From NCBI RefSeq assembly GCF_037975245.1, contig NC_092566.1, positions 17,705,001 through 17,769,000 on the forward strand: DNA of 64,000 bases, given 5' to 3'. A program made the position numbers and the translations under genes. Every line of letters starts with the position of its first letter. The stretch's first letter is position 1. Positions 589 through 44,822 of this stretch are shown piece by piece. Below the pieces are notes generated by a model. The model was not told the DNA's origin. It made no database searches and saw nothing but the letters and a program-made list of their open reading frames with translations. The DNA is from Apostichopus japonicus. Its lineage: Eukaryota > Echinodermata > Holothuroidea > Aspidochirotida > Stichopodidae.

Positions 589-13131
<12,543 letters not shown>

Positions 13132-20479: not shown

Positions 20480-21260
20480 ACTCAAATGCTTTTTGGGACA
20501 CATTCTTTAGGCCCGAATTTGTAGCTCCCAATATCTTTAGACCATTCGGACCCACATTTCGTGCGTTCAACTTAAGGGGGGGGGGGGGGGAGAAAATATT
20601 TTTTAAGCCAGTTTGATTGCGCCAAATATTTTGGGACCATATTTGGGACAAAATTTCATTGGGCCCAAGTTTTGGGAAGGGGCCAAAATTTTAAAATTGC
20701 AATAACTCCACAACTGAACATCGGATTGTATCCAAACTTGGAATACAGTTGTTGATTAATAGCTGGTACATGAAGGCCTACATTTTTGTGGGACCATCCA
20801 AAAAATATTCCGGATTCATATTTTGGCTAGGTGAGCCGAAATTTACTTTCATCTCAAACGCATTTCGGGGACACATTCTTTGGGCCCAAAACTTTTGAAG
20901 CCTAATATATTTGGGCCCACATTTGTTTGGGACGGGGGCAAATATATTTTTCAGTCAGTTTGTTGGGCCAAATACTTTTAGGACCATTTAAGCGCAAACG
21001 TTTAGTGGGCCCAACTTTTTGGGAGGGCCCAAAATTGTACAATTGCAATAACTCCACGATCATAAATTGTGTTGTATCCAAACTTGGAATACAGTTGTTA
21101 GTTAATAGCTGGACATGTGGGCATTAACATTTTAGGCCCACTTGGGTTCAGCATTATGTTGAGCCCATATTGGGAACCAAAGTTTTTGTTTGGACTTTTT
21201 GGGCCCAAATCTCTTTTGGCCAACGTTTTTGCACCCAAATTTGGATAGCGCCATTTGGGC
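20480..21260. repeat. GGGCCC-rich repeat, two diverged copies of about 370 bp
   Basis: AATTGCAATAACTCCAC, TGTATCCAAACTTGGAATAC and TTAATAGCTGG occur at about 20694-20765 and again at about 21038-21112. Around them are many variants of TTTGGGCCCAAATTTTGGGG. A long G-run is at 20577-20590. From 19751 to 20480 no gene is seen; 19840-19960 has GT-rich simple sequence. Confidence 0.65.
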
Positions 21261-23930: not shown

Positions 23931-24045
23931 ATGAATTTACGGCCAAGGTTAAGGAAAAGAAGCCATTTGCAGACAGCAATTAAGTACTGCAAAGATAAAT
24001 CAGATCGTCCTTCATTGACATCTCGCTGGATAAATGACGAAATAG
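23931..24045 (+). CDS. Gene B exon 1: basic N-terminus leading into SET
   Basis: The acceptor AAATCTGTAG is followed at once by ATG. The 115-nt exon encodes MNLRPRLRKRSHLQTAIKYC, then KDKSDRPSLTSRWINDEI, and ends in phase 1 at GTAAAG. The sequence before SET (AIKYCKDKSDRP...WINDEIG) is like the segment that precedes the SET core in KMT5A-related proteins. RPRLRKR is a possible nuclear signal. Confidence 0.78.
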
Positions 24046-27000
24046 GTAAAGTACTCTGTTAAATTTTGTATCTTTTCCAGTTTAACCTAGTACAAAGCTT
24101 TTGTCAGAGTTTATTTAACTTAAAATAGGTTCTAGCTGTATTCGAACATTCAGCATGCTAACTCTACCAGAAATATTGCTCAAGCCAAGTTGGACAATGA
24201 TCTGAACCTCTCAGAATCGATCAATGAAACAACATTTATTATTTTCATAGTCTTAACAAACTGAACTGTACCAGAAGACCACATACTAGTGAAACACATA
24301 GGAAGAATGGTGTATTTCCAGGCTTAGTCAGACCTTCTTTTCCAACTACTATTGTTTACAGCTACAATGTAATCTCATAAGCTTTGAAAGTGGTAGCATC
24401 CTTAATGTGGGGCCAGTCAGTACAGATCTTTAAGATAATATTTGTTGATTGATTGCAGTTTCTGTGATCATAGGCGTATATGCATCTCACATCTCAATTG
24501 CTACGATCCCAATTTCCTTGCAAACTGTTAAGGTTTAGTGTCATGTTATAATGCAAAATAAGTCTTGCATGTCAGGCTGCAATAGTCTCTTTAAAGCCTT
24601 GATAAGAGTTTGATTTAAACCAGTGTTTGTTCGAGTAATCCTGGTATCCAGGTACCCGCCTGACTGATTACTACCTGGTTCTGAAAGTACTTCCCAGTTC
24701 CGCCTTAAAATGTAAAATATATATGTTTGGTAAAAATTGTACGAATTGTTTGGGAAACCAGTATTGCCGCATTGCTTTGAATGTTTGCCACAATGCCCTC
24801 GAAAAATAAATTACAGTTACTGCAGAAATGTCGATATGCCTTGAATCCATAATTGTCGTAAACATTCAAAGGCTGCTATATCATTGGAAAACAGATTGAT
24901 TCTTCTAAAGTTCATGTAGGTACCGTTAGGCCTAACTTTAGGTTGAAAAATTGAGAAATGGCCTCGGAATACCGTCTATAGTTTTGCATCAGTAAATGCA
25001 AATTTCCCAAATTAAGAAAAAAAATTGCAGTAGTTTTTAGTTGTTATAATTTCTTTAAATCTATCTGGTAATGTTCTACATTAATTCTAGAGGAGTTATA
25101 AGAGTTCCATTGCTGTTCAGTTTGATTGGCCTAAGCTTTTATTTTCCAATTGAACTTCAATGGACTTTGGAAGGTAATGAACAAGGATGTTTAACATTAA
25201 ATACGTAACATTTTTATTTGTTCATAAACAGAATAATAATGAACATAAGTACAAAATAATTTCGGAATGTAAGAAATAGTTAATCAAATTTTATATTTTG
25301 GTAAAGATTGAAGATGATTGATTTTTCTGAGATACTTTTTTGGGATGGATAATTTTAGTAGCTATGCTTAGCATATTTAGGCCATTAACAGGTAACATGA
25401 ACTTCACACACATCAAGGTGGTTAGGCCATGTGCTATGGACATAAATACATGGCTATTTGTAATATGTCATATTTTCTGTATTTTGGAAATTTGTAGAAA
25501 GTCTTTTCCGCAAAATAAATTTTTAGCCTCAAGTGGTGCCTTTCATTTTAGCTTGCATGGTACCCCGAATAAAGATAGAGTTTAAGGCTATATAGCCTTG
25601 CACTCAAAATGACAAATCTCCAGGCATGCCACTCTCCTGTGTGAATAACACATTGCAGTAGATTATTGGCGGAGGGGACCGGCGGGTATGGTTGTCTATT
25701 ACCCTGTTCCAATTTTATATACCCAGTGTAAACACTAATATTAACTTTCAAGTCTTCTTGTTTTTGGACAGGGTATGGCACTTTTGCATGTTATCCTTTC
25801 TTTGAAAATGAGTTCCTGCTGGAGTACAGGGGTGAGCTATTGCACTACAGAGAAGCAATTCAGAGGGAAAACATGTACCCACCCTCTCGTAGGAGTTACA
25901 TGTATTTCTTTAAGTTCAATGAGAGATCATACTGGTAAGTTATTCTATTAAGTATTGATAAATTTGAAATATCAAGTCTTAAAGAATGGCTAGAAATTAT
26001 AAACCTGAACTTTGGGTGTATCTAATTATCACATATGACACTAATTGTTATCTATATATGCTGTTTTTGTCAAGGGTATATTACAAAAAAGAATATCCAG
26101 TTTTTTTTTTTTAGTGGGCAGTGTGGGAGAGGGGGAGGGTTGCAATGCAGGGGATCATGTTTATAAGTGTGAAAGGGGGTTGGCAAGTATACATCAGGAC
26201 CCAATGGATATCTGATTAAAAGTTCCAAAGGGATGAGCATATTATTGCTCAAGAAAATTCTGGGGAAAGCACTGGAACAGAGGCTAAGGCATAGGGTTTT
26301 GTATAAAATATTCAAAATTACCAGTTGGGTTCCAATTAAGGGAGAATTTTCAGAATTTTAGACCTACAGTATAAATGGTTCAATTTAGCAAGCATGCATT
26401 TTACTATATATAATTAAAGGAGAAGGGATTTTAAGCAACCTTTAAAATACTGATTTTATTCCTGAAAATTCATGCCCTCCTAAGGCTATATACCACTAAT
26501 AGAAGATATAAATGTACAGAATGCTTTGTTCAAGGCTATATAATCTATAGCATTGAAGGTAGGCAAATATTTTTGTTATATTAGTGTTGATGCCACAACC
26601 TCTACTGGGAATGGACGCCTTGTAAATGATGCCCCGAAGAACACCAGCAAGTGCAACTGCAGAGCAAATGTTGTAGAGATCAATGGACAGCCATACTTGT
26701 GTCTGTTCAGCACAAGGTCAATTTCAGCAGGGGAAGAGCTCCGTTACGACTACGGGGTTAGCAACTTACCATGGCGCAACAAGGTAGAATATATTTTCTA
26801 ATGGAATCTGAAGTGCAAATATTTACTAAATATAGTTATAACAAAACAACTTCTATGAAAGACAGCAAGTTGCTGAAATAATGTATCCTGCAGTACATTA
26901 TGTGCAGACATAAGACTGTTGACATGGGATAATGTACATTCTAGTGGTTATCTAGGTCAAAGGAGTAGACCTTGGTCAGTACTGTAGTATATACAGTAGG

Positions 27001-30000
27001 CATTACATTTAGGGTGATATCTGAACTGTGCCTTAATATAGGCTCCATTTCGCTGTGGGTATTGAGCCTGTGATACCCGTAGGGTTTGTGAGTTTATTGA
27101 GTTCAAAATAGAAGTTACTTTAGGATGAACATAAATATAACAAATGTAGTCTGTTTAGCAAATCTGAAGTCAAGTTCATTAAATCAAAATTCAAGTCCAG
27201 CTGGTCGGCGACAAGTCCGTGTCCGCCCAGTATCTATGGAAAGGGTATTAATTATACCCACCCCCCATGATCGACCTATTGGACTTGATTTTCCCTTACT
27301 TTATGATACTAAGTATTACTAGCCATTGAAGTCTCCAAAAGTACCGCCCTGTTCATCAGAGTGGTCATGTTTATAGACATACTGAAATTCAGAAAGAAAA
27401 GTTGAGTATAAACGACCAATCCTGGTTTTGCTATGCATTGCTGCAATGAATACTTAGCTGTAAGCATTAGACATAAATATACATTGAATATGGGAACTTT
27501 TAAACCATTTGGGCCTATAATTTAGTATTTTATACAGATTTGGAAAAGCTATCAGACAAATGTTACAGTATAACAATAATCCACAAAGTACATCATTCAC
27601 TGGCATTTCACCAACTTGTGAATAAAAGTGACGATAATCCTGACATGTGCATTTTTAAAGGGGGCATTTTAATACTTGTGAACATTTGTGGATAATCAGC
27701 ATGCTTCTTCAGCTCAAACATTTTGGAACACTACTGTCAATCATAGTACACTAACTTATATTGTCCTAATGTTTAAACATACTCATTTGTACATTTAGGA
27801 ACACTACTATCAGTCAGAGTGTCCTTATTTATACTGTGTGTTCACTTTTAACAGTCTCTTCTTTGGTTCAATTGAGGACACTACTGTCAGTCACGGTGAT
27901 AATCTCCTTACTTATCCTGTCCTGGCTTTTAAATTCTCATGTGGCGTGATATGTGGCGCTGCTCGCGTGGCGACACAGCTTGCAGTTTCCTCTCGAATTC
28001 CATGTTTCATCGTTCTATTGTCGCTGTTTTATCCACCGAATGCTGTCAATATGTGCTCTAAGTGGATGTTTATCGTTTTGTTGGTTGTGTTTGTGACTGT
28101 TTGTATCGTTTCCCACGGAAATGGCGAGGTTTTTCATAATCGCCACCGGACAGTCTTCTATTACACTCCATCGGAACTTCGCGCAATCGGTACTAGATGT
28201 GCAGTCGGTACAGGACTACCAGATATGCGATTACCAAAAGAGATGAGGCGACGAAAGCGTGGGAAAGCAGGGGGTGTCAAACGAAGGAATAGTCAGTGTA
28301 AGAACCGGCCTTATTTACCCTCAATCATAATGGGAAATGTTCAGTCTCTCAGCAACAAGATGGATGAACTTTGTGCGAGTGTGAGATATTTGTCGGACTT
28401 CAGGAATACTTGTATTGTGTCGTTCACAGAGACATGGTTGACAGGTAACCATAGTGACGATCATGTTAACATCGACGGATTCCAACTGGTACGTGGTGAC
28501 AGGGATTTGGAAGCGGCTGGTAAATGCAGTGGGGGAGGTGTGTGTGTTTACGTCAACCAGAAGTGGTGTCACCCAAATAATGTGTACAGAAAGGACTATG
28601 TTTGCACCCCCCACCTGGAAATGTTAACTGTTTCTGTACGGCCATTTTATCTACCGCGGGAGTTCTCACACGTTTTAGTCTGTTCTGTTTACATACCGGA
28701 CAAGTCCGTTGCCAAGGCGGGTAGTGCTGAGTTGATTAAGGCCATTCAAGATTTGGAAGCTAAAGCCCCTGATGCCCTTATTGTGGTTAATGGAGATTTC
28801 AACCATGGATCAATGAAACACCCGGGATTACGGTTTTATCAACACGTCAATTGTCCAACACGGGGGGAATCGACTCTGGACCTTTGTTACACCAACGTCA
28901 AAGACGCTTATGTATCATCCCAGTTGACTAAGCTTGGTGAAGCCGACCATGACCTCGTTCTCCTGTTACCAAAGTACAGGCCTGTCGTCCAGCGTGAAAA
29001 GCCGCGGGTAATTACAATCAAACAATGGTCGGATGATGCCCTGGATCAACTCCAAGACTGTTTTGATCGCACGGACTGGGAAATGTTTGTTGACACTGCC
29101 GATGATATTCACGAATTAACGGACACCGTCAGCTCCTATATCAAATTTTGTGAGGACGCCATCATTCCCACGAAGAAAGTCAAATGTTACCCCAATAACA
29201 AGCCATGGATTACTAAAAGGGTGAAACAGTTGATCAATAAGAATGGAATGAAGCACTGGAGCTCCACAGGGCACTGTGTTAGCACCATTCCTATTCACTC
29301 TGTATACCTCCGGAATACGCTCCACTGACCTCAGCTGTCCGCTCATCAAGTTCGCGGATGACACTGCTCTCGTTGGCCGGATTAAAAATGACGATGACCG
29401 GATCTACCGTGAACAAATTGCCAATTTTGTTGCTGAATGCGACAGGAATTATCTCCATCTTAACGTCAGCAAGACGAAGGAACTCATTATAGACTTCCGG
29501 AGAGCGAACAAGATAGTGCCCGAACCTGTGGTCATTGACAGTAAGACAGTGGATAGGGTAACTGAGTACAAATATTTGGGTGTAGTTATGGATGATCAGC
29601 TAAAGTGGGATGCACATGTTGAGTATGTTGCCAAACGTTTGAAACCACGAATGTATTGCTTGAGGAAATTAGTCTCTTTTGACGTGAACCAGAACATTTT
29701 ATCCATTTTTTACAACTCTATTATTAGTAGTGTTTGGTCATACTGCATAACTTCCTGGGTTGGTAACATAAATAAGACATCCAAGAAAGTGTTAGATGAT
29801 ACTGTTATACGGGCAGGTAGGGCTGTTGGGAAACGCTTGCCAATGGTTGACGAGATCTTTGATAGTCGGGTTAATGTTAAGCTTCATTCAGTTCTCAAGG
29901 ATATCGATCACCCTCTCCACGCTCCATTAAATAATTGTATTATCCCTCGTAGTGGGAGGATGAGACCTCCGAAGGCTCATACTAATCGTTACCCCTCATC

Positions 30001-33000
30001 TTTCATGGGACAAGCTGTTAGAATTTTTAATGCATCTTTTAATCGCTAATCTCTTGCCTTTGTCTTTCCTTCTTTCATTGGGTTCTTATCATATTTACCG
30101 TTTGTGATTTGTTTATACTTTTTATTCCTTGCCATTCTGTGAGCTTCGGCCCATCTGTTCCCGTTCCTTGTTATTAGCATTTCTTATGCTTTTATTGTCC
30201 TACTGTTTGTTCTCTTATTGTTGTATAGTATCGTTTTTATATCTTACTGTTTTATCTGCAAGCATGTATTTTCCCTATCGGATGCAATAAAGTTTATCTT
30301 ATCTTATCTTATCTTATCTTATGTTTGGCACACTTGGGGATATTGCTGTTAGTCACAGTGTCCTAAGTTATATATTCACACTCTTAGCAATCCACACCTC
30401 TAATCACTCTTCTTTTGTTTTTTAATGCTCTGCCTACTAGTACTTTAACAATGTTCATGTTATTGTTTTATTACATTTCATCTTTTCTGTTCAGGCATCA
30501 ATTTATGCCGTGCTACTTCCCAAATTTTCTTAACTCTTTGTCTAAAATTTTACCATATGATCTCTTTCAAGTCACTGCTGTATACGAGGCTGGGTTAACT
30601 TTCTTTAACCATTTATTCTTAATGTAATAAATAGACATATGGATGCTGTACCGTACATCAACACATGTGATTTTATAAGTAAGAAAAGTGTGTACAGGAC
30701 ATGTTCCCTATAATAGAAGTTTCTTTTGTTTATATAGGACATATTGCAATCTTAGGAGAGAAATGGGAAAGGGGCTAATATGAACCATGGGGGTGATGAG
30801 CCAAGAGGTCAATTGAAGTCTATTAGGCTATACCTACATGCCGTACAATCACTAGCTACAGAAGCTATGTGTAAGGCACATTGGATAATTTAAATAAAAA
30901 TAGGCTAAAAAAGCAGGAACCATTTATGATTCAACCATGGGTGGCCTTGCCTGAGTCTCAAGTACAAGTCCAGAGCATCCAAAATTTGAGTCCAAATTCC
31001 AGTCCGCAGAAATAAGGAATTTCCATATTCCTAGTCCAAACTTAAGTCCTACAGAACTGCTGTTTAAACATTTCATTGTCTTCATGCAACGTCCAAATTT
31101 GGCGCTGTAATCTGAAGCTTATTCCTCTCGTGTATTTGCTACAGGCTGAGGTATGTCCATTTGAATAGTAGTGTATGCTCAAATAGACACACTCATCCTT
31201 CATATCCTCACTCTGAGGTTTTCTTTTTAAAGACTTGCTTCAGTCTATCAACTTTTCTCATTTGAAATTTGTCTATGCTTGTTGGGTTCTCCACAAAGCT
31301 ACTTATATTTTAATTTAAGGTGAAAATCACACCTGAGTAGTTTGAGGGTGATTTGTTTTTGTGTTTGTTTTGTGTATTAAGTCAAAGTGTGCATTGCTCA
31401 TGTAACAATTACAGGATTTCAGCCATTGACCTGTAATTTGCTACAATAACCCTGATAAAACTGGCATATTTTTTCCCTCAGATGTGGTTACAAATCCATG
31501 AGTAGTACTATACAGTAGCTATGCTCAATTTTGCTAGCTACCACCCTCATGTAATATTCTCTCAGAGCTTCACTGCAGTATGTACATGACCAAATTAATG
31601 AACCTGTAACATTAACTTCCCTCCTCACTTATCTGTCTCCCACAACCAATGAACCTCAATCTACCATGCCTATAGCATAGAAACATGTAGTATCTTTGGA
31701 AACTGTTATGCCTTGTAAAGTTTACTGTATTGTAAATTATGTTTAAAATTCATTAAAGGTATGCTGTATTGGCTCCAAATATGCCCGATATCCAAATATG
31801 GTCATGTTTGGTCCCAATTCTTTGACTACTTAGACTATAGACTATGTAAGTTTTGAATTGAAATTTGTCAGATATTGATTGAGTAGACAAGATAGTTTTT
31901 GAGGTACAGTACATGTACAAGGCAATTTTAAGGAAAGTTCCCATGATGATGCAGACTTCTTGTTAGCCTTCGTCTGAAACACGCCTGTAATCTTGATCAC
32001 TCCAGACTCATGACAATGATGCATCACAAATGCACATCTTGATGACAACTGTGTTCATAGCAGAATTTGGTAAGAGTCTGCTACTGAGCTCATGATCTGA
32101 TTAAGATCCCATGTGAAAGCAGGGTTGTGCAAGTTTTTGTCAGTGACAGGAGGCTGGGGTTATGCTGTCTATCCCAAGCAATGATAGCACTAAAGGAGCT
32201 TCATCATACTTGAGAACTTGTACATTTCCCTCATTTAGTAAAATGATCTCTATCAAAAAGCAATTCCAATAATACAGTATATTTCAGTACTGGGCTGAAT
32301 GCCTTTGCTGATATTGTTTCTATTACTATAAACAGATAACTTTCTAACTGAATGTATGTAATGTTTATGTGCATGGCAATATTGTGTTTTGACTTGTGTA
32401 ATGAGAGTATAACTAATTTTCTTTATATATAGGAAGACTATTTGGAAGATGATCCCTTCATCGACTCTCCTGCGGTATGTTGTCTCATTTACATCTATTG
32501 GATTTCCTTTTCATGTATCAAACTATCATCATATGTCATGACAAGCTTCAATGTTCAATGTTTCAAAAACCCCTCCATGCCACCCTGTGGGATGAACATT
32601 GCTTAAAAATGCCTACCAGTTCTTGTGCCAGATGTATAATGCTGAATTAAATTTCAATGAAAGTTATGCAGAAGTTTCTTTTCTTCAGTATTCAGAGGGT
32701 GCATGAGAGAGCCAAATTGCAGTAATTAGGTACATAAGTGAGGAAACAATCACAGGAAGTGTTCACTCTTCATTGCCACTGCTGTACAATGTCCCCTTTC
32801 TGCTACCACTTCTGCCCATCCCTATGCTCTATTCTAATATTAGTTCTTAAACCTGCATTGCCATTTACTCACACCAAGAGGGTTACTTCACTGTCCCTTT
32901 TTGGAGAAGTCGTGGCAAAGGAAGGCCTCAAGACATTGCTGAACTTCTCTGAGTTCACTTTTCTTGCAATGTCATGATGACTTTGAGGAAGAGCCTGGAT

Positions 33001-36000
33001 ACTAGCTACTTCGTAGCATGAATGCTTCTCTCCTGCAACTGAGTTGATAAAAGAAAGCTTTTAACTTCAATATAATACAAAACCTATTACAGTATACTAT
33101 AAGCCTATAGCTTCAGCAGGGTTTTTATTGTCCAGGCATATAATTTCAAAACAATTGGCGGAATTCGCTAATTTGTCTTCTGTACTCATTCATATCTCTA
33201 CTTGCATTCTTTAAAGTGATTGAATTTCATTTATATTCAAAACAATTGAGGTGTATTTGTTTCTCTTCAGCCATTAGGAAATGAAGACGAAATTACAGGA
33301 AGTAGTAGCAATGGTGAACCTGTTCCAGTAAGTATATTCTCTTAAACTGTCAATCTTGAGCAAGATAATGTACCTGAACCCCCCCCCCCCCCCCCACTCC
33401 ACTCCTTAATATCTAAACTAAAGTGAATTATTAAAAGTGCATTGAATTTCATTTATATTCAAATCAATTGAGGTGTATTTGTTTCTCTTATCAGCCAGAG
33501 AATGAGGAAGAACCTACAGACAGTGATGTTAGAGATAACTCTGTAGTACCCATAAGTTTTTGTTGCACTTGTTTTCCATTCTGTTGTTTGGGACAAATTT
33601 GTTAGGTATAAGTAGCAGGCATTTATAGATAGGGTCTCATCTGTACACTAGCTGTCTTTACCACAAAGAAAATATATGCTCTCAAAAGCCCTTTCCCTGG
33701 AGAGTTAACGACTTTATTTCTTTGGAGGTGTGAGTTGGGGGGGGGGGGGTGAGGGGGAGGTAGCATGGGATTGGCTAGTATTCATTTGTTCATGGCTGAG
33801 TGCCTGAATTTCTTGCTGGCTCACCAGTCAAAAGTTGACTGACTGTTGGTTTAAGTGCACTGGTTTGAAACGAAATCTATTTCACATAAAATACACTTTT
33901 ATTTAGTATTGGCCTTTATTTAAAATACTCTTTTATTATACTTAATTCCAATCTGCAAATTTCTAATTTTTCTAGGTAGTAACCAATGACAGTTCCATCT
34001 TGGACAATATTTCCTTTTGTGGCCTTTTGAAGGTAATCCTTCTGCTTTGTTCTTCATATAAGAAAAAATAATCAATATAAATTAAAGCTGTGTACAACAG
34101 AGCAATATAAATCATGCTCATCTAATTAATACTGTAGTTCATTTAACAGTCTTTACTGTACATACATTAACTCTGAAAATGTCTTGCTTTTATTTTAGAT
34201 TATTGATTGATTCTTTTCTTGATTGATTACTTGATTATGTTTGATTATGTTTAAATATTTATTTTTAATGCAATCCCATTTAAAGAAAACATTTAATAGA
34301 TGGATAAATCTTGGACTACTGAAATGTGTAAAAGACTATAAGATATCTCTTTGCAATTGCAAAACAAATAAAGCAAATTGAAAATGCATTCTCTTTTGCA
34401 TGCAATGGAGCATATAGGATAGTGCATGACCTAAACCTGTTAGGATCACCTAAAAACTTAATGTTGACATTGTAATTATGTGTCAGAACTCATACATGCT
34501 TGCTTCATATTTTATTTCATACAGATAGCAATTATCCCCTACTCATAACTTAAACTTAATCCAGTCCCATGATGAAATGTTGAAAGGAATAATATATCCT
34601 AAAGTATTCAGCAGAAAGCTGACAAGTCAATGCTAAATAAATTGGAAAAGGCAAATAGAGTACTGCCTCAAATACAATTATTAAAGTACTAGTGACCTTG
34701 AGCTGTATGCATCCTATTGCCATTTATAAATGCAGGTAAACTTCATGTGGGTAAACTTCATGTTCATAGTGTATATCTGACATCTGTAAATGTTTGTTCA
34801 TTTGATTCAATAACCTTTTAGAAATTGTTTTATGTGTAGAGGTTAACATTGACCCCTAATTACCCTGTTTGTAATGGGGATAAACATTGGGGGCTGTGAA
34901 AAATTACCCCTTAGCTTCTGTTTTGCACTAAATGGCAAGGGGATGGGGAATGCCTTGTCCTCCATTGCTCTGGATAACCTGTGCATTTAAGGTCAAAAGT
35001 AGCAGTGCTGGACATTTCACTATTAATATAGCATACTTAATAATATTTTCCTACTCCAAAACATCTCCCCTTTCTCTTCAAGCTCTACCCTTACCACTCC
35101 TCCAAACCTGTTATGTGTAAGATTTCATTGAAAGCATCCTCCCTTATAGATTGCCTTAGTATGTACTGATAACATTCAATTTATGTAGAGGTGAACATAG
35201 ACCCCATTGATCCATATTTGCAATGGGCTACAGGGATTCATTGTGGGCTATGAACTTGTTTCCCAGCTGGCTTCCATCTAGAAGCTAAGTGTAGACTTAT
35301 TGGTGGTCTTGACTTTTTCCCAACTCCCTTAATAATGTTAACCAACTGCAAGATATCTTTGTCACATGGTTTTTTTAATCTCTACCTTTAACCCTTCTCC
35401 ATCCACTTGTATGCATGAACCAATGTAAAATCAAATTGAGAGGTGCTTCCTTTACTGATTGTCTAATTTTGATACTGCATACTCAATGTGTAGAGGTTAA
35501 CAAACACCCCGTGTTACCCTGTTTCCATTGGAGGGATCATTGGGGGCTGTGAAATGTATCCCCAGCTGGCTTCCATCTGGAAGCTAAAGGTATACTTCTT
35601 AGTGGTCCTGCATATGTTTCAAATTCTTGTCTGTGGATGATCTGCTTCCCCCCCCCCCTCCCCCCTTGTTTGTCTAAGCAACTGGGCATATCCCTGCCCT
35701 GCATTTTTTTCTGCCTAATGCATTAATAAATGTCAGAGGTAGTAATCCAAAAACTTCTTTTATACCTCTACCTATAAGTAATATTACACACTACAAAATA
35801 TCTTTGTCACCTATTTTCTTCAACCTCTACCTTACCACTCCTCCACCCCTGGTAAACTGTTAACCAATGCAGAATCAAATTTAGAGGTGCATCCTGTATT
35901 GATTGTCTAATTTTGATACTGCAATAATCAATGGTTAACATAGACCCCATTTTACCCTGTTTCCAATGGTGGGAGGGGGTTCATTGGGGGCTGTGAAATG

Positions 36001-39000
36001 TACCCCCGGCTGGCTTCCATCTGTAAGCTAATTAAGGGTCGACTTCTTGGCGTTCCTGACTTTATTTTCACGTTCTTGTTTTTTTTGGTGGGGGGGGGGG
36101 ACATTCTGCCTTACCCTTCCCTCATTGGCTTAGCTAATGGGTTTGCCCCACCCTATCATTTTCTTTGCCAGACTTGTATAATCAAATGACTTTTCAAATT
36201 AGGTATAAGTCCTGGGTACGTATTTCATGTTGTATATGTAGCCCCATTCCAAACTTCACCTTTCTGTTCATAAAAACTCTAATCTGACCCCTCTTCCACG
36301 CCCCTGACAAGAATCATTGCAGACTTCCATTGATATCTGCCTCCCATATTGATTGCCTCATTTTGTTAGATTTGATGAAAGTCGATGTGTAGAGGTTGCA
36401 TAGACCCCATTTTATCCTATTTGCAATGTTCCCTTGGTAATCTTTGGGGTGGGGGGGGGACCATTAAACAAACCTGCTGGCCTGATGTTGTTTCCAACTT
36501 TTTCAGCTGGGGATGCTCTGTCCCCCCCCCCCCACCCCCTTCTTTTCGATAAGTTACGGGGTATATCTCTGTCCTACTCTTTTATGCCTGACTGATAAAT
36601 TAATGCCAAAGGTGGTATTCCTATATACTTCACTAATGCCTTTGCCTACATGTACTAATGTTACCCAACCCAAAATATTTCCGTCCAATTTCTCTTCAAT
36701 CTCTACTCTAACCCCTCCTCCAACCCTGATATGCATAACCAAAGCAAACTCACATCGAGGGCTGCCTCTTTTATTGATTGCCTAGTTATTTCATTTATGT
36801 ACTATTTAACCCACATCAAAGAACCCTCCCAGTTTCTGTTCAATTCCTACATTTACCCTTGCTCTACCCCTCATATGTAGTGAACCAATGCCAAATCATA
36901 ACTCCTTTATTGATTTTGTAATTTTGTTACTTTCACACCAAAGTTATACCTTGAAACTTATGTGCCATAACCTGTGTAGGTTTAATATACACCCCATTGA
37001 AGGGCAGGGGGATGGGGGGATGGTGGTGGCAGAGGGGCTGTAAAGTTGTATCCTCTACCGTTTAATGTAGGATTTTTGACCTCACATACTAATTTAATTG
37101 TACATCATTTTCATCACATTCAGCAAGTCATGTTCAATCTTCCTGATCTTCCAAATTATGAGGTGTTGGATATTTGTTTCACAGATACACACAAAAGATA
37201 ACTGCAACAACAAGGCAGATGGGAGGTATGCAGTCTCCGAAGTAGATGAGGATGGTGAGTTTGACTGTTTCTCCACAGGATTGTCCTTAGCCGGCTATCT
37301 AAATGTTGTATCTTGTAAATTTCCAGCTAACTGCACTCTGCTTGCTTTTATATCATCTTTATGTTACTTTACAGGAAACCATATATAAAAAAGTATGGTA
37401 TAACACGACTATAACAGAACAACTGTTGAAGTTACAACCATATAGGTCAGACTGCTTTATTGGCCCCAAGTATAGCATGATACTGCCAAAGATTTTCCTA
37501 CAATGATGGCATTCACCTGCCATGGTCCTAAAATGACCTCATTTTACCAGTTATCCTGCACCATCTAGGCTGGCACATATTTTTCCTTGTGTGAGAGTCT
37601 TTGTGTAGACAATGTCTGGTAAACTACACTGTCGACTATACGGACATATTACCACACAGTGTTTACACGAAGAACCTCACAGTGTCAACAAGCTGTGCTG
37701 ATTACTTCATAGTAGCCATGTCATTTTAGGAAAGTGTCAGGTTGATTACGTAATTACAAAACTTTATTAACTGTTGCGTGCTATAATTAGTCACAATACA
37801 GCATAATTTGCAATGTAAAAAGGGACTAAAATAATAAAATGGAAACAATAATTAAGGTTATTTAGGGACCAATTTCAGCTCAGAGACAGAGGAAAGGGTT
37901 CATTTTAAATTCAAGGCCAAAGTCTGAAAACCTCAAGTAGCAGTGGGTACATTGTTTAAATATTAACTCTTTTTCTTTAGACATTGATCAATTTCTAAGA
38001 AGAATTCTACTCAAAAACTTGTCTGACCTGATCCTTTCATATACAGATCTAGTCAGACTATAATGCAGCATTTACTTATAAGCAAGTCAGATATGATAGA
38101 GTAACCCTTTAACCTTCGCATTCTGTTCATTAGATGTGGTCCCAACATCTGACCAGGAGGAGGAAGAGCATGGGAAAGTTCATCCTCATCACAGTAAGCT
38201 GGTCTACCATTAATACTCATTTACATAATGACATGCACACAATTTGTAGGCATATATGACACTAAGCTTGCAAGCTATGTCTCATATAAGAGTTGAAGTT
38301 CAATTAAACTCATATGTGTTTCTGCACCATATTGACTAAAAAAAGCCTACTTTGCTTTTGGAGATGTCAAGAAGTAAAAGCATAGTCAACCAGGTAGTTC
38401 ATATCGCCCATAGTTTTCATGTCGATGTTAATTCAGATTGATTGCGTCATAGATTGTTTTGTGTCAGAAAGATTTAAAGTTTGACACAGAGCTTAGTGTA
38501 GTAAAACAGAAATTAAGTATTTTGTTTTTTCTTTAAAATGTAAAAGCCTGTATTATTCATTAAATTCATTGTTACTTACCAACACTAGTACACAACATTG
38601 CAATGTGAAATCATGATGAAACACACACATTGGACATGCCTGGACTCAAACTTTTAAACTGTAAAACTTCATTGTAACACTTCTTGTCATTCTGAACCAC
38701 AATATGGCTAATGTAGATGAATAATCCAGCCAGAGTTCATAAGTACTTTAAGTAGTTATCATATACTCCACAGGAACATTTACACCAGAACCTGATGAAA
38801 GGAGCATGGAACTGGGTGCACTTCCTGAAAGTTGTGAGTGTGTCTTCATCTAAATTTATTGAAATCTACATTTATTTTTAATTAAAGAAGACATTTATGT
38901 CTATACTAGTAATGATTGGCATTGTACGTGTACAGTAATAGTAATTGGGCAGTGTGTGGTGACCATGAGTGTTACCAATGCTTTTGCAACCTTGGTATAA

Positions 39001-42000
39001 GTGCAATTTGTCAATTCTTTACATCTAATTTACAGCTTATAAACCTCCTCAGCAAGGACGTCCACAGAGATTCTGTCCATTTTGTTCGAAGACCTTTTCA
39101 GGATCTCAGCTTACTCGACACATAAAACGAATCCATAAACATGAAGATGAAGTACAGATGGCATTGAAAATGCCAAGAAAGAAGCAGCATCAGCTTTTTG
39201 CTAACATGAAAAAAAGGGGCATTCACATTGTTAATAGGGAGGAAGTTTTGAAAGGAATTAAACATGTTACTAGACTCAGAGCTCAAGGGAATTCAGATGT
39301 GATCATCTGCAGTTTGTGCAAAGGCACTTACAGTAAAAAAAACTTTAGAAAGCATAAGAAAAGGTGCATGAGTGTAACATCTGATGAGTTACAACCTATC
39401 TCATTGCCCCTGTCTGCTCTTTCTTTACATGAAGAAGATTCAAATTTTGGTGAAAGCATTTTGAAGAAAATGAGAGATGATGAGGTTGGACAACTTGCCA
39501 AATCTGATCCAAGCATTGTTACCGTTGGCAAATGCTTGTGGCAAGAAAAAAGGAACAAGAAAGACAAGCTAATTGAAGGAAGAAAGTCTGTAATCAGAGC
39601 AATGAGACGTTTAGCAAATCTGTTCAAGCATTTCAGAGGAGAACTTAAACTCACAAACAAAGAAGTTCCTCATGCTACTGCCAGTGCTTCAGACATGTTC
39701 AAAAGAATGTATTTCCAAGAGCTTGAGTTTAGTGTCATACACATCACTGATTCTGAGGGTGACAATATGAAGTATGGCCTAAAAAATGAACTAAAATACT
39801 TAATTAAGAAGTCTGCATGGATTCTGAGGTCAAACTTCCTCATCCTCGAAGAGGATGATAGTGCTAAAGAAATTGAACAATTCTTGGTAGTGTTTGACAT
39901 GAGAAAGCACTCATTGTTCAGTGATGCAGAATACCAGCTTCAAAGAAACAGGCAAATCAAGCACAGGAAGCCAGTGGAACAGCCTCTAGATTCTGACATT
40001 GATAGGATCAAGGAGTACATCCACCAGGAAATGAGCCACCTAATAAACGAAGAAGATTGGACTACCAACAAATACTCACAACTTCGGGACTTGGAGATCA
40101 GTAGACTGACATTATATAATGCAAGGAGAGGAGGGGAACCATGTCGGATGACGCTTGATGAGTGGGAGGATGCAGCTAAGGATTCCTGGATCCAGTCATC
40201 AGCTGCAGCTACAGTACAGGATCCCCTAGAGATAGAGCTGCTCAAGACCACCAAGATTGCATTTCAGTCCGGAAAAGGGAACAATCGTTTGGTATCGGTT
40301 CTTATACCAGAAGATTGTATCAGAGGGTTGGAGTTGCTGGCAGATTCTAAGATAAGGCAGATTTGTGGAGTGAATCCTTCAAACAAGTTCTTGTTTCCTT
40401 TCACACAAAGTTCCTTAGAGCACCCCAGTGGGTGGCATGCAGTCAACAGAATTGCGAAAGCAGCGAAAGTGGAATGTATTGACAAAATGACTGCTACGTC
40501 TATGCGTCACCGAACTAGTACCCTCTATGCAATGCTCGACATCCCAGAGTATGAAAGAGACAGATTCTATGACCACATGGGGCATTCATCTGCCATTAAT
40601 AAACATGTTTACCAGGCTCCTCTGGCAGTCACTACAATTACAAAAGTTGGCAAGCAGTTGCACCATTTTGATAAAGGTAAGGGTATGTTTTTTGTCAGTA
40701 TTAAAGGCATTGAAGACTCGCCCCAAACCGTGTGCGGCCATCTGAAAAAGTTTACTTTCCGTTGCTTGCAAGTGACGTTTTGTTTGTGTCTTTACAAAAT
40801 GCAGACATCAATCAAACGTGATACCTATATGATTGTTATATTTTATCTAGACTTGAAATTTCCATTGCTGCTATTGTATGTACACATGTACTGACTGTAC
40901 ACTAGTGTCTAATTATCAACGGTAGCAAGTTGTGTATGTATTTTATGCGATCGATGGTGGTGTCTAACACTTCTGTTACACCTCATTTAAAACTAGGTCA
41001 GATTACCGACATGAGACGTTCCTTTGTGCGCGATTCTTCACACCCTTTGAAGCAAGCTGTCCTTTAAGTAAAGAAAAACATCCTTCAGTGCAGATCTGAT
41101 CTTGGTATCTTGAGATTTTGGGATCAAGTAAAATACGGATCCTAACATATGTTTGTTATACATTGTAAGCTATAAGACATTGATTATCAAGAGTGAGTGT
41201 CCCATGATTTGTGTGGTATTTCTTTCTTCAAACAGGGAAGGCAGAAGGTACTGGGATACCACTGCAACTAGAGAATGCTGATAACCACTCAAGTAAGTCT
41301 AGCTATTACAAAGTTACATGTGGGTGCAAAATCTTTCAGAACACTTCTCGGAAATACTTGTTTCTGTAAAACTTTAAATCTGAAATCCTGTTAACGCCAT
41401 GCAGGTTGAAAGAGTGTAGAAATCTTCTGGCTTGTTAGTTTAGGTATTTTTATTCCTTGATGAACGTAAAAGAAATCTATCCAGGCGTGAGTGATGTGTG
41501 TGCCTTGGGATGCTGCTTGTAAATACGATATCTCAAGAAGTAGAAGATGCTTTAACTTCAAAGTCTTTGTGTTGGTAATCCTCGGGAGTAGATCAATGAT
41601 TGCTATGGATTTTGAAGGAGATCAAAAGTCATTTGAGGTCAGAAAAGGTCAAAGTCTGAAAAACTTGTATCCTTTTTTCCCAAGACAAAAAATTGGTTTA
41701 TTACTAAAGTTGGTTTACCATTAAACTGAATATGTAAACAGATATCTGTTAGTGAGTACTTGCAAAGGTATGTCACAATATGTCAAGCTGACAAATTGGC
41801 ACACCACTTCAGTTGTGGTACAAGTTGGAAAATGTTGTATCCAGAGTTTGTTTATCTTTCTTTTTAAACTGTTTGATGCTTAGTTGTGTTATCAATTTCA
41901 TAAACTCATTGATTTCCTTGTATTCTTTAGTCGTGCTGTTATTAAGTCACAAAATCACACCTTGATACAACTGCACCCCAAAAAGAAATGCTGTGTATGC

Positions 42001-44822
42001 GTATTTTCTAATACAGCTAAGCCATTTTTTAAGTTTTGACTTTTGAGCTTACATGCATTTATACAAAGAGATACAGACATTGTTCTGCTTGGTCTTTAAT
42101 ATATTAGATGGAAACTGTGATGAAGAGATTGACCCAGCTTTGCAGAGGAACCAACAAGAGAGTGAGTTTATTTCTTTGTGTGTTTACAGCTCTAAAATGA
42201 TCCGATATGCTGTGGTGCACACATTTGTTGCTGTTTTGAAATTCACAATTCATTAGCTCATTCATTAGTTATAGAAACATTCTTGTTTTGGTCCTGGTTG
42301 AATAATGAAATGGAATTTTTGAAAGATTACAAGGAAACTATGGGTATTGAGAGGAAGACAGATGGTTGGGGAACTTCTGCTGGTGTCCACTGACTTATTC
42401 GAATTTGCTTTAGGATGAGCAGTCATTGGTAGCTAGGTTATTTTCAAAGGAGGGTTACTTCTTCATTGCTTGCCATTGTAGAATTTGTCTTATATCAGTT
42501 CTTCATATCATAAAATGTTGACATCACATGAATTATTGCAAAAATCAGTAACATTTGTCACACATATCATGTTATCTTTGAGAATAGCCTACCCCTTAAC
42601 CACTGCTGTTCAATGTTAGTAACAATTGTCATATTATCATTTGTAGGAAGATGTAAAGACAAGGGACTTCACGCTAACAGCGAATCTGGGGTTTCAATGA
42701 GTAAGTTCAAATAGTAATTTTAAGGAAATGAAAGTAAAAATAGATTGCAGCATTGAACATTATTACATTATTGGTACATTATTTATCACTTTGATAATTT
42801 AAAGGATTGTTTCAGGTGTTTGACATGCCTATTTTGTATGAAAGAGCACAAAAAGACTAAAAGAACAGTGAAGAAACTACCATGATAGCATGCTCTGTTA
42901 AGGAGATATGACACTTTGAAGATATCAAAATTTCTTTGAAAACGACTGGTGTAGAAAGACTTACTGAGAGGGTGTGACGTCACATCCTCACTTCCTTAAC
43001 ATTTGTGAATATATTTCTTTAAAAATTATTTACATTTTTAACACATTTGAAAATAATATAATCAAAAATTCTTCAGATGTTTAATCTCAAATACTCCTCT
43101 GACAAATATGAGATCTCCTGACATATCTTTTGGTTGAAAGTAATGAAATCTCACAAAATATTTAGAGAAAAAAACAAAGACTTTTCAGGAATGTGAGGAT
43201 GTGACATCACAGCTAGTCAGATTTCAGCAGTTTCTACACAATCTGATAAAACTTTACACTTGAATATCTCTTTAACCGAAAAAAATATTTGAACAGTTTT
43301 TTCACCATAGTGTTTCTTTTATTGTCCTCTTTCATATTACATAAACATGTATGACAACTGAACCAATCCTTTAAGCACAAGTATGTGTTTCTACTAACAT
43401 ATACTGTATGCTCCTCGTGAATTATAGCCTCGGAACTTAAACATAGTGATTAAAAAATAGTTAACAATTTTGGGCACATTTTGTTAAAGTGAAAATAAAT
43501 GTTACCCTTTAAATTATCAACATTCCTGGGAAGCATAGCAAGGCATTCAAGATGAAATTTCTTACAAAACTGAAGGGAAAGGATCTGCAATCAAGTTTTT
43601 TATGGCAAATAATGATTATTTTGCTTGAATTAACATGTTAACATGCAGTGTTGTAAAAGTGAATATCTACTTTAAAGGTTACATACTGTAAAAATATTTA
43701 CCATGTTTAGGTGACAGTGATGATGAAGACACTGATTCAGATGATTACCATGGGTCACCATTGAAGAAGCATTGTAAGAAAGGTGAGTGTTTCGTCATAG
43801 TGTTTCCTTGTCTCAGTGTTTTATGGCTTTGCTATTAAAGATTCAAAAAGCTGCTGTAGATTGCTACTATTTGGACAGTTTCTAGCAGATGATTACTTTG
43901 TAAACATGAGACTGGTAGTCTTGACTCTCAAGTTAGGGTAGAATCACCCATTAATTAGTCTCATATCATCTGGTTGATACAAAAATCTTAATTCATTTAA
44001 GATATACTTGCTGAGATGGAATTCAATAATATACACCATCATGTGGAGTTGTTACCTATAAGAGCTGCAGCTCTTAATAGTACATGATTACACTTAGAGC
44101 ATATATTGTAGTTGATATCACCAATTTACAGTTCTACATGGAATGTTCTTTCAGTAACCGGAACTTGTTGATTGGTCACATCATCTGTTAGAGCTCCCAT
44201 GTATGATGGCTGGCAAAGGCAATATGTACTAAGAGTTATTTATATCATTGTCTTAGCTGAGGATTTCATAACACCTATATGTTATTTGCTTAAATGTGTA
44301 ATAACTGCATATAAGTGTATGTTGACCATTGATACTAATATCTTCTTCATGTTCCAGGAACAAGACAAAAGTGGACAAAGACAACCACGGATCTGATTCA
44401 GTCAAGGTTCATGAAGTACATCGTTGAAGAGGGATCTGGAAGCTGTGGCTGCTTGCCAGGTAATCTTTTCACAAATAAACCATGCACTAACTGCTGCACT
44501 GACTCACTATGTCTAAACATACTTTATCCACTATTTAACACATTGTTTATAATATAATGGTAGATAAGTTAAACACTACTACCTAATGTACATATGTTGC
44601 ATTAGGTATACATATAAATATATATACATATTACTATGCCAAATTCAATAGATAGTCTTTTTTATCTCTGCAGGAAGGAAAGAGCTGTCAGACTTTTTGG
44701 TAGAAAACAGAGAGATATTGCCTTCGGTTACTACTTTGAAGAGGAAAGTTCTTCTTCTAAAAACAAAAGTTTTTAACGAAAGAAAATCTTATAGGTCAAA
44801 GCTGTCAAAAAAATGTTCATAG
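23931..44822 (+). CDS. Gene B: SET domain / zinc finger / tyrosine-recombinase fusion protein, 17 coding exons, 1000 aa
   Basis: Exons: 23931-24045, 25772-25934, 26585-26783, 32433-32474, 33271-33327, 33495-33545, 33976-34032, 37185-37254, 38134-38193, 38774-38833, 39036-40676, 41236-41292, 42108-42161, 42647-42700, 43711-43782, 44358-44459, 44674-44822. All introns are GT-AG, all phases fit, and the sum is 3003 nt ending TAG. Order: KMT5A-like SET 34-159; acidic low-complexity 160-291; C2H2 finger 305-325; C2HC finger 383-402; tyrosine-recombinase catalytic domain about 640-825; acidic and basic tail 838-1000. Predicted chromatin or DNA-binding role, nuclear; substrate unknown. The start ATG directly follows an acceptor, so translation may begin there or upstream exons may exist. 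Exon 6 could instead end at 33542. The large recombinase exon is certain; the small exons rest on splice sites and phase. Confidence 0.86.
25772..26783 (+). CDS. Gene B exons 2-3: KMT5A-like SET domain
   Basis: Exon 2 (25772-25934) gives the GYGTFA turn and LLEYRGELLHYREAIQRE, then SYMYFFKFNERSY. Exon 3 (26585-26783) continues CVDAT, GNGRLVNDAPKNTSKCNC, INGQPYLCLFSTRSISAGEE and LRYDYG. KMT5A proteins mono-methylate histone H4 Lys20, and YCVDAT plus EELxYDYG are close to that subfamily. The SAM-binding NHS motif expected after GRL is NDA here (residues 107-109), so methyltransferase activity is uncertain. No pre- or post-SET Cys clusters, as usual for KMT5A. Confidence 0.9.
28051..29250 (+). 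pseudogene. LINE ORF2 fragment: APE-type endonuclease
   Basis: The open frame runs from 27838; a Met at 28051 is the more likely element start. It has RRRKRGKAGGVKRR, IIMGNVQSLSNKMDEL, SFTETWL, GGGVCVYVN, VVNGDFNHG, STLDLCYTN and GEADHDLV, the ordered motifs of the apurinic-type endonuclease. SDH of the usual motif is ADH. The frame reads KPWITKRVKQLINKN and then loses homology at about 29245, where the deletion junction lies; it ends at a stop at 29328. Confidence 0.85.
29254..30049 (+). pseudogene. LINE ORF2 fragment: C-terminal half of reverse transcriptase
   Basis: In the next frame, STGAPQGTVLAPFLFTLYT, LIKFADDTALVG (the catalytic Asp pair), HLNVSKTKELIIDFRR and YKYLGVVMDDQLKW form the palm and thumb blocks. 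The C-terminal part, LHSVLKDIDHPLHAPL and SSFMGQAVRIFN, is typical of this LINE group. The fingers and early palm are missing, and the frame differs from the endonuclease part, so the element cannot be active. Confidence 0.87.
32433..34032 (+). CDS. Gene B exons 4-7: small acidic exons
   Basis: All four exons are phase 0-0 (42, 57, 51 and 57 nt). They encode EDYLEDDPFIDSPA; PLGNEDEITGSSSNGEPVP; PENEEEPTDSDVRDNSV; VVTNDSSILDNISFCGLLK. Exons 5 and 6 (33271, 33495) share about 50 bp of preceding intron (GAATTTCATTTATATTCAAA and GAGGTGTATTTGTTTCTCTT), so one is a tandem duplicate of the other. The region is probably disordered. Exon 7 (33976-34032) is the least certain. Confidence 0.68.
34830..37080. 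repeat. Intronic tandem repeat, about 300-580 bp diverged units
   Basis: A motif like GAGGTTAACATAGACCCC recurs at about 34838, 35190, 35494, 35931, 36392 and 36978. It is followed in several copies by GGGCTGTGAAATGTA and CTGGCTTCCATCTG, and later by CTCCACCCCTG and GATTGTCTAATTTTG. The same family forms the array at 46900-48560 downstream of the gene. Poly-C and poly-G runs interrupt it. Confidence 0.75.
37185..38833 (+). CDS. Gene B exons 8-10: acidic linker before the zinc fingers
   Basis: Exon 8 (37185-37254, phase 0-1) encodes IHTKDNCNNKADGRYAVSEV followed by DED. Exons 9 (38134-38193) and 10 (38774-38833) are each 60 nt, phase 1-1: DVVPTSDQEEEEHGKVHPHH and RTFTPEPDERSMELGALPES. Acceptors and donors are good (GTGAG, GTAAGC, GTGAGTG). 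No fold is recognised; Glu/Asp-rich and likely disordered. Confidence 0.72.
39036..40676 (+). CDS. Gene B exon 11: zinc fingers and tyrosine-recombinase domain
   Basis: This single 1641-nt exon opens with FCPFCSKTFSGSQLTRHIKR, a C2H2 finger (C305, C308, H320, H325). A C2HC finger follows, CSLCKGTYSKKNFRKHKKRC (383-402). After a helical region comes a tyrosine-recombinase catalytic core: box I LTLYNARRGGEPCRMTLDEW (Arg655/656), the strand turn SGKGNNRLVSVLIPED, box II TSMRHRTSTLYAMLDIPEYE (Arg782), HMGHSS (His808) and KHVYQ (Tyr817). The His of the HxxR motif is Thr779. Such enzymes cut and rejoin DNA through the Tyr. The spliced host-gene setting suggests a captured and repurposed domain, possibly DNA-binding only. 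The open frame runs on to 40891 in the intron, but the GTAAGG donor at 40677 continues the phase. Confidence 0.92.
40701..41051. mobile_element. MITE with TTAAAGG termini, in an intron of gene B
   Basis: The left end is TTAAAGGCATTGAAGACTCG. The right end, CGCGATTCTTCACACCCTTT followed by GAA, is its inverted counterpart. Long shared interior with 52731-53136: CTTTCCGTTGCTTGCAAGTG, GTGTCTAATTA, GGTGTCTAACACTTCTGTTA and ACTAGGTCAGATTAC. Non-coding. TTAA-ended inverted repeats suggest a piggyBac-type relative (inference). Confidence 0.8.
41236..44822 (+). CDS. Gene B exons 12-17: acidic repeats and basic C-terminus
   Basis: Exons 12-14 (41236-41292, 42108-42161, 42647-42700) are 57, 54 and 54 nt, all phase 1-1. 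Exon 15 (43711-43782) adds SDSDDEDTDSDDYHGSPLKK followed by HCKK. Exon 16 (44358-44459) encodes GTRQKWTKTTTDLIQSRFMK, then YIVEEGSGSCGCLP. Exon 17 (44674-44822) encodes GRKELSDFLVENREILPSV, then a Lys/Arg-rich end, KLSKKCS, and TAG. All donors and acceptors fit. The KWT...DLIQSRFMKYI segment looks like a small helical domain I cannot name. Confidence 0.78.

Follow-up and report, generated by a model that had tools for sequence, protein, structure and literature searches.

A gene in which a SET domain of chromatin type is joined to a tyrosine recombinase (YR) raises the question of whether a host gene once captured a recombinase or a mobile element came to carry a SET domain. Such a gene lies on the forward strand at positions 23931-44822 of the window analysed here, a 64,000-nucleotide stretch (contig C6, 17705001-17769000) of the 671.6-Mb genome of the sea cucumber Apostichopus japonicus, assembled in 35 contigs; coordinates given without a contig are those of the window. 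We consider it likely that this gene belongs, intact and spliced, to a family of SET-zinc finger-YR proteins widespread in animals and that, at the level of the family, the SET-YR protein is the recombinase of Crypton-like DNA transposons. It looks like a mobile-element recombinase because a SET domain is linked to 46 of the 61 YR loci listed in the genome, its active site has been kept, and one subfamily includes both bounded, dispersed copies and derivatives that lack the gene.

The SET part of the window gene is encoded on the plus strand by three exons that join in frame into a 159-codon N-terminus: 23931-24045, with the start codon and the residues up to the domain; 25772-25934, with the first half of a KMT5A-like SET domain; and 26585-26783, with its second half (YCVDAT, RLVND and YDYG). 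Joined, they match the Pfam SET profile (PF00856) with an E-value of 1.6e-14, and the closest solved structures are those of KMT5A/SET8 (E 1.3e-23), the SET structure of SETMAR being also among those listed; both the fold and the YCVDAT/YDYG motifs of KMT5A-type methyltransferases are present. P0097, a SET-YR protein of A. japonicus in the public databases, has an N-terminus homologous to that of the window gene, and from residue 6 it aligns with the first exons of that gene (63 of 157 residues identical). The main exon, 39036-40676 on the same strand, contributes 546 codons counted from 39038 and encodes two zinc fingers, a helical region and the core-binding and catalytic domains of the recombinase (residues 153-544, 39494-40669). 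Finger 1 (C13, C16, H28, H33; 39074-39136) matches zf-Di19 and zf-C2H2 below the curated cut-off, its cysteines and histidines being conserved in the family alignment, and finger 2 (C91, C94, H106, C110; 39308-39367) is likewise conserved at these residues and has no Pfam match.

The fold of this exon is the core-binding and catalytic fold of the tyrosine recombinase superfamily; both the SET domain and the recombinase motifs that a preliminary description had read from the letters of this stretch are borne out. Conservation of the active site was scored on a 125-row alignment, gap rows being left out column by column: the first catalytic arginine, R364 (40127-40129), is kept in 113 of 114 rows, the beta-hairpin lysine K413 (40274-40276) in 109 of 115, the second arginine R490 (40505-40507) in 111 of 112, the histidine H516 (40583-40585) in 106 of 108 and the nucleophile Y525 (40610-40612) in 108 of 109, all on the plus strand. 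The usual position of the first histidine is taken by Thr 487, a threonine in 100 of 112 rows, and the R-K-H/x-R-H-Y pattern of tyrosine recombinases is complete. The loss of the catalytic tyrosine and second arginine that marks the domesticated DUF3504 genes is not seen in the window recombinase, and DUF3504 itself gave no row in Pfam scans of the window open reading frame (ORF) and 20 further family proteins (E limits 1, 5, 0.1 and 10), nor did DUF3435, the domain of the Starship captains, in scans of the window ORF and further family proteins.

The genome was searched with P0001, the public protein for the finger and recombinase part of the gene (65 of 189 first-look candidates scored), and with the window SET domain (150 of 237 scored). 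These searches returned at least 67 YR matches, merged into at least 61 loci, and at least 141 SET matches, the counts being lower bounds because only part of the candidates were scored. At the 46 linked loci the SET domain lies upstream of the recombinase on the same strand and within 60 kb, the largest gap being 30.7 kb; at 4 of the 61 a SET lies within 60 kb in another arrangement; the chance expectation is about 0.4. Seen from the other side, a listed YR stands downstream of 56 of the 141 listed SET matches. The 46 linked loci rule out a one-off fusion, and the preliminary picture of a captured recombinase tied to a chromatin gene gives way to that of a multicopy family. Over 17 SET-YR pairs (among them the near copies L017 and L018, and L022, whose SET is cut) the distances of the two domains are correlated (r 0.52), none of 5000 permutations reaching as high a value.

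Several subfamilies include near-identical copies on different contigs, mostly 97.6-100% identical over the 4.6-9.6 kb fetched, with lower identity in tandem-repeat stretches and in one 550-bp stretch of the pair L004/L008; no element end was found in the 4.65 kb fetched for the L004-L008 group. The ratio of replacement to silent substitution rates (dN/dS), estimated for 12 copy pairs of which most show small substitution counts, lies between 0 and 0.39 in eight, while silent sites (dS) are saturated in three and one pair shows no change; L004/L008 differ by 7 silent changes and 1 replacement, L002/L003 by 23 silent changes and 32 replacements (dN/dS 0.39). At C16:31815700 and C16:32014900 (L009 and L010), two SET-YR copies separated by 199,200 bp show 100% identity along 9,601 bp and have SET-YR gaps of the same size, reflecting either a recent duplication or a duplication in the assembly. 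Three SET matches at C13:9229198, 9269225 and 9309252 follow one another at an exact spacing of 40,027 bp, perhaps as a tandem array of 40-kb units, and many SET matches on C4, C14, C19 and C20, at about 32-38% identity, have no listed YR nearby; perhaps these form a further multicopy SET family, or their recombinases are too diverged to be scored.

Element ends can be drawn in one subfamily, with a YR ORF of 1041 amino acids, from a comparison of three copies (A, B and C) over 22-30 kb, which supersedes a fuzzy boundary obtained earlier from A and B. By this comparison copy B occupies C19:453430-470246 (16,817 bp) and copy C, on the minus strand, C8:31679848-31662632 (17,217 bp); copy A runs from C8:7746267 to about 7764830, its right end being placed by its own inverted left motif. 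Copies B and C start with TTTTTGGTTTCGATGAAATCGTAACC and end with GTCATCGAAACCTCAATGCATTTTGCATTCTGGTT, and beyond these ends their flanks show no similarity over 3 kb on each side (0.8 kb to the right of C). A core, GGTTTCGATGA, lies 5 bp inside the left end and its inverted copy 23 bp inside the right end, so that 11-bp inverted repeats stand near both ends; when random pairs of equal length were drawn 2000 times, an inverted match as good as this came up 4 times for B and once for C. Copy A has a different left end, GGTTCCTTGCTT, the letters of which recur inverted on its right. In B and C the motif TGGTT, which begins 4 bp in from the left end and recurs at the very right end, may be the core at which crossover takes place, and inspection by eye shows no target-site duplication in these two copies. 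Both SET exons, here in the NH form, and the YR exon are enclosed by the ends, the SET being split at about the same position as in the window. Among ORFs of at least 150 amino acids, only the YR ORF and two that overlap it lie between the ends of A and B, none of them an intact reverse transcriptase/RNase H ORF; the reverse transcriptase of the window belongs to an intronic long interspersed nuclear element (LINE). Copies of the bounded element (L029-L030, L023-L025) also contain long tandem arrays, with steps of about 210 and 320 bp in their self-matches, and copy A has a repeat of 399 bp in its right part.

The ends also occur apart from the gene. The 26-base left end of B is found at 80 places, spread over 21 contigs, and A's palindrome of 30 bases at 147 places, the reversed controls giving none in either case. 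Two gene-less copies, on C9 and C1 (1.5 kb fetched each), are flanked on the left by about 60 bp that are unrelated between the two and begin alike with TTTTTGGTT; after 61-77 bp of the left end of A they pass directly into its right-end region (from position 20878 of A), omitting the gene. This account covers 2 of the 227 end-motif places. Apart from the copies that served to define the ends, two YR loci from other subfamilies have an end motif upstream on their own strand, at distances of 6.0 and 7.8 kb (180 places listed); 0.33 in all would be expected within 40 kb. At C22:17071894, 17073249 and 17074604 the left-end motif occurs three times at an exact spacing of 1,355 bp, perhaps as a head-to-tail array. 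One subfamily thus has both dispersed copies of defined extent, which carry short direct repeats at either end, and non-autonomous derivatives, and we infer that what holds for it also held for the subfamily of the window.

The family reaches well beyond the sea cucumber. A protein search with residues 385-935 of Haliotis P0003 (best 7999 candidates scored) gave 85 proteins, the query included, from sea cucumbers, urchins, crinoids, a tunicate, molluscs, an annelid, hydrozoans and, weakly, a bug, with many metagenome records; nine of them carry a precomputed SET domain and three more (P0032, P0047, P0073) a partial one by the SET profile. The order SET, zinc fingers, YR was found, among others, in Haliotis P0003, Argopecten P0057, Magallana P0067 and Saccostrea P0071 among molluscs, in the urchin Strongylocentrotus (P0026) and in Apostichopus P0097, which upholds the earlier claim that the three parts belong to one gene family, with one-piece paralogues and orthologues. 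With a divergent paralogue as query, 16 proteins were obtained (8000 candidates scored); they include A. japonicus models whose isoform numbers run up to X30, and a YR from a fish whose model has no SET. A YR tree of 52 rows falls into two clades with SET in both, the SET label needing 12 changes against a mean of 17.4 under shuffling (2 of 500 shuffles as low). By these sequence comparisons the SET-YR fusion is old and widespread in animals. A scan of viral contigs with the family alignment, giving 36 pattern stretches and no relative, led us to reject a viral origin. The Magallana gigas relative P0109, named BRCA1-like, bears a BRCT domain and is another possible fusion of a host domain with a YR; Argopecten P0055 ("myosin heavy chain, skeletal muscle-like") and Pseudorasbora P0111 ("lcorl isoform X4") are SET-YR or YR proteins whose names are probably misleading.

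A mechanism can be proposed on this basis. The zinc fingers and the core-binding domain would bind the inverted repeats at the element ends, and cutting and rejoining would proceed through a covalent link to the tyrosine (Tyr525). A circle might thus be released and rejoined elsewhere at a short common core, for which TGGTT is the candidate, and the recombinase could act in trans on gene-less derivatives that keep the ends as well as on its own element. At the donor or target site the SET domain might act on nucleosomes or bind to them, by marking of the histone H4 K20 type or by docking. Docking rather than catalysis is possible, judging from the residues: the NH of KMT5A is replaced by ND in 15 of the 17 SET domains compared, the window included, so that methylation may have been lost, and NH is kept in two, one of them inside the bounded element.

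Several observations weigh against a transposon recombinase. The window SET is itself of the ND kind (RLVND), 15 of the 61 listed YR loci show no SET, and neither do 29 of the 52 tree rows, in both cases partly through incomplete models (P0001, the window's own gene, being an example). The ends are defined in a single subfamily, in the other YR-tree clade from that of the window, and none were found around the window gene, where inverted pairs of the GGTT type (one of 11 bp, three of 10 bp) are at about chance level and no palindrome occurs. Within the bounded subfamily, the value of 1 in 2000 for copy A is circular, its right end having been found through its own inverted motif, and its right side is satellite-like; in a fourth copy, on C14, just 1.9 kb out of 4.0 kb on the right matched, at about 91%, so that its end could not be defined. 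The sequences of the derivatives (L056 and L057) stop about 98 bp before the right inverted repeat of A and do not reach their right ends, and two more end motifs near YR loci stand in the wrong arrangement. None of excision, circle, transcript or empty site has been seen.

Three alternatives accept a SET-YR gene and differ as to what moves or keeps it. The most serious is domestication of the window copy, in which a SET-YR element gene of ancient origin would have become fixed here and been kept by the host for a role in DNA rearrangement or binding or in chromatin marking; this is plausible, though we lean away from it. No other member of the window's subfamily among the matches scored has a whole YR exon, the next best being two tandem genes on C1 at 54% (against both, L002 and L003, dS is saturated and dN is 0.40); no element ends were found around the window copy, and its LINE insertion is present in at least two assemblies, since the public model P0004, on a different and shorter contig, has the same LINE behind the same SET exons. 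Yet all its catalytic residues are intact, where the domesticated DUF3504 genes lost the tyrosine according to PMC3212892, an 82% fragment with a stop at C8:40632730 suggests that the subfamily left another copy, and intact resident elements would look alike; the window copy may have been domesticated or may be an element long resident at this place. It is unlikely that the copies arose through ordinary segmental duplications in a family of host SET-YR genes rather than through YR-mediated transposition: the length of the spliced genes, the lack of observed movement and the closeness of some copies (the C1 pair and the identical C16 pair) speak for it, but B and C have exact common ends with unrelated flanks on both sides and inverted repeats near those ends, the left-end motif is scattered over 21 contigs, and two gene-less copies retain the left end and the right-end region. 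It is accordingly disfavoured for the 1041-amino-acid subfamily and open for that of the window. It is improbable that the gene is a passenger, whether cargo of an element moved by another enzyme or an inhabitant of a commoner repeat family with the same end motif. The end motifs do outnumber the gene copies that bear them, and the element holds long minisatellites and a satellite-like right side, but there is no other ORF of 150 amino acids or more between the ends of A and B apart from those overlapping the YR, and the short direct repeats present at the two ends are what a YR would be expected to leave (PMC3212892).

The remaining alternative, that the window SET exons and the recombinase exon belong to two neighbouring genes, is very improbable. 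It draws on the public annotation, which splits the gene into BSL78_29199 (P0004), the SET exons with the intronic LINE, and BSL78_00778 (P0001), the fingers and YR; on the unproven middle exons; on a 12-kb gap that holds the LINE, a remnant with endonuclease and reverse transcriptase pieces (27799-30046, plus strand, in the intron and no part of the gene; RVT_1 at E 3.5e-8, Exo_endo_phos at 8.1e-4, below its cut-off); and on the weak exon 3 donor at 26784, which scores 0.5 on a simple matrix. The split is probably an annotation fault, as one-piece paralogues and orthologues suggest: P0097 and P0076 in the same species, Haliotis P0003, Strongylocentrotus P0026 and Magallana P0067 all have the same order in one protein, and the fusion of the SET exons to the LINE in BSL78_29199 is an annotation artefact. 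Downstream of the main exon six small exons, closed by GT-AG and in agreement with P0001 (99% identity to the window gene over 77% of the query), lead to the stop: 41236-41292 (its acceptor gives the GKAE of P0001, and one at 41248 closes too), 42108-42161, 42647-42700, 43711-43782 with an acidic stretch, 44358-44459 with a C-terminal KWT region weakly like Haliotis P0003 (E 0.027), and 44674-44822, ending in TAG at 44820-44822, all on the plus strand. Of the 17 exons and 1000 codons proposed in the preliminary description, ten exons are thus supported; the seven small ones numbered 4-10, at 27-39 kb, are unproven, comparison with the Haliotis linker having given them no support. To the left of the gene, on the minus strand, ORFs at 3574-3906 and 9242-9565 resemble parts of what we take to be a HECT-type ubiquitin-ligase host gene.

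Among known systems the nearest parallel to the proposed transposon is with Cryptons, which share the YR as recombinase, animal hosts including sea urchin and mollusc, and non-autonomous derivatives; the 4-6 bp direct repeats at the ends of fungal and oomycete Cryptons (TATGG in many CryptonS) are comparable to TGGTT. According to Kojima and Jurka (2011, PMC3212892), terminal inverted repeats are absent from Cryptons, and those of animals have neither C-terminal domains nor terminal repeats of any kind; the Figure 1 legend names YR, GCR1_C, DDE, C48 and HTH and no SET, and the word methyltransferase does not appear in the text. The Repbase papers list CryptonA, F, I, S and V. The bounded element is like CryptonA in being YR-only, with no intact reverse transcriptase among the ORFs counted in A and B, whereas DIRS and Ngaro elements carry reverse transcriptase and RNase H beside the YR; it differs from CryptonA in its 11-bp inverted repeats, and from Cryptons generally in its SET, two zinc fingers, spliced gene, length of about 17 kb with minisatellites and lack of a DUF3504 match. 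The DUF3504 genes (KCTD1, KIAA1958, ZMYM2/3/4, QRICH1 and WOC), described in PMC3212892 as domesticated Crypton YRs that have lost the catalytic tyrosine and second arginine, are likewise multi-exon animal genes with a YR-derived domain beside others, but the SET-YR family keeps both residues. Fungal Starships too are large and moved by a YR gene, while SET-YR elements occur in animals, at about 17 kb, with a SET, without a DUF3435 match and with no cargo ORF of 150 amino acids or more seen. KMT5A/SET8, the H4K20 mono-methyltransferase, supplies the closest solved SET domain, from which that of the window differs in the aspartate for the histidine of the NH motif and in its fusion to zinc fingers and a YR. 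SETMAR, a single primate host gene, joins a SET to a mariner (DDE) transposase; the SET-YR proteins resemble it in pairing a SET with a DNA-mobilising enzyme and differ as a multicopy family with a YR.

No SET-YR protein was found in the part of the literature searched, in line with the earlier statement that no protein of this architecture had been described; Repbase and preprints lay outside that search, and an unnamed entry may therefore exist. We put at about even the chances that these genes represent an undescribed superfamily of animal DNA transposons, in which a histone methyltransferase of KMT5A type is built into the spliced recombinase gene itself and one protein combines chromatin marking or docking with DNA cutting and rejoining. 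Such a superfamily would have been active recently in the sea cucumber, its YR relatives would range from cnidarians to fish and its SET-bearing forms over echinoderms and molluscs, and it would offer single copies with intact active sites for host use. If so, this would be the first YR mobile element known with a domain of the histone-methyltransferase type, as far as the searches reach, and it would show that a chromatin enzyme and a recombinase became joined long ago and not in a single isolated case. The family opens to experiment the question of how chromatin might serve a transposon to direct its movement or set its timing. It also supplies candidate ends for an animal recombinase family poorly covered by current Pfam models, which may account for several of the "uncharacterized" or misnamed SET proteins in the annotations of marine invertebrates.

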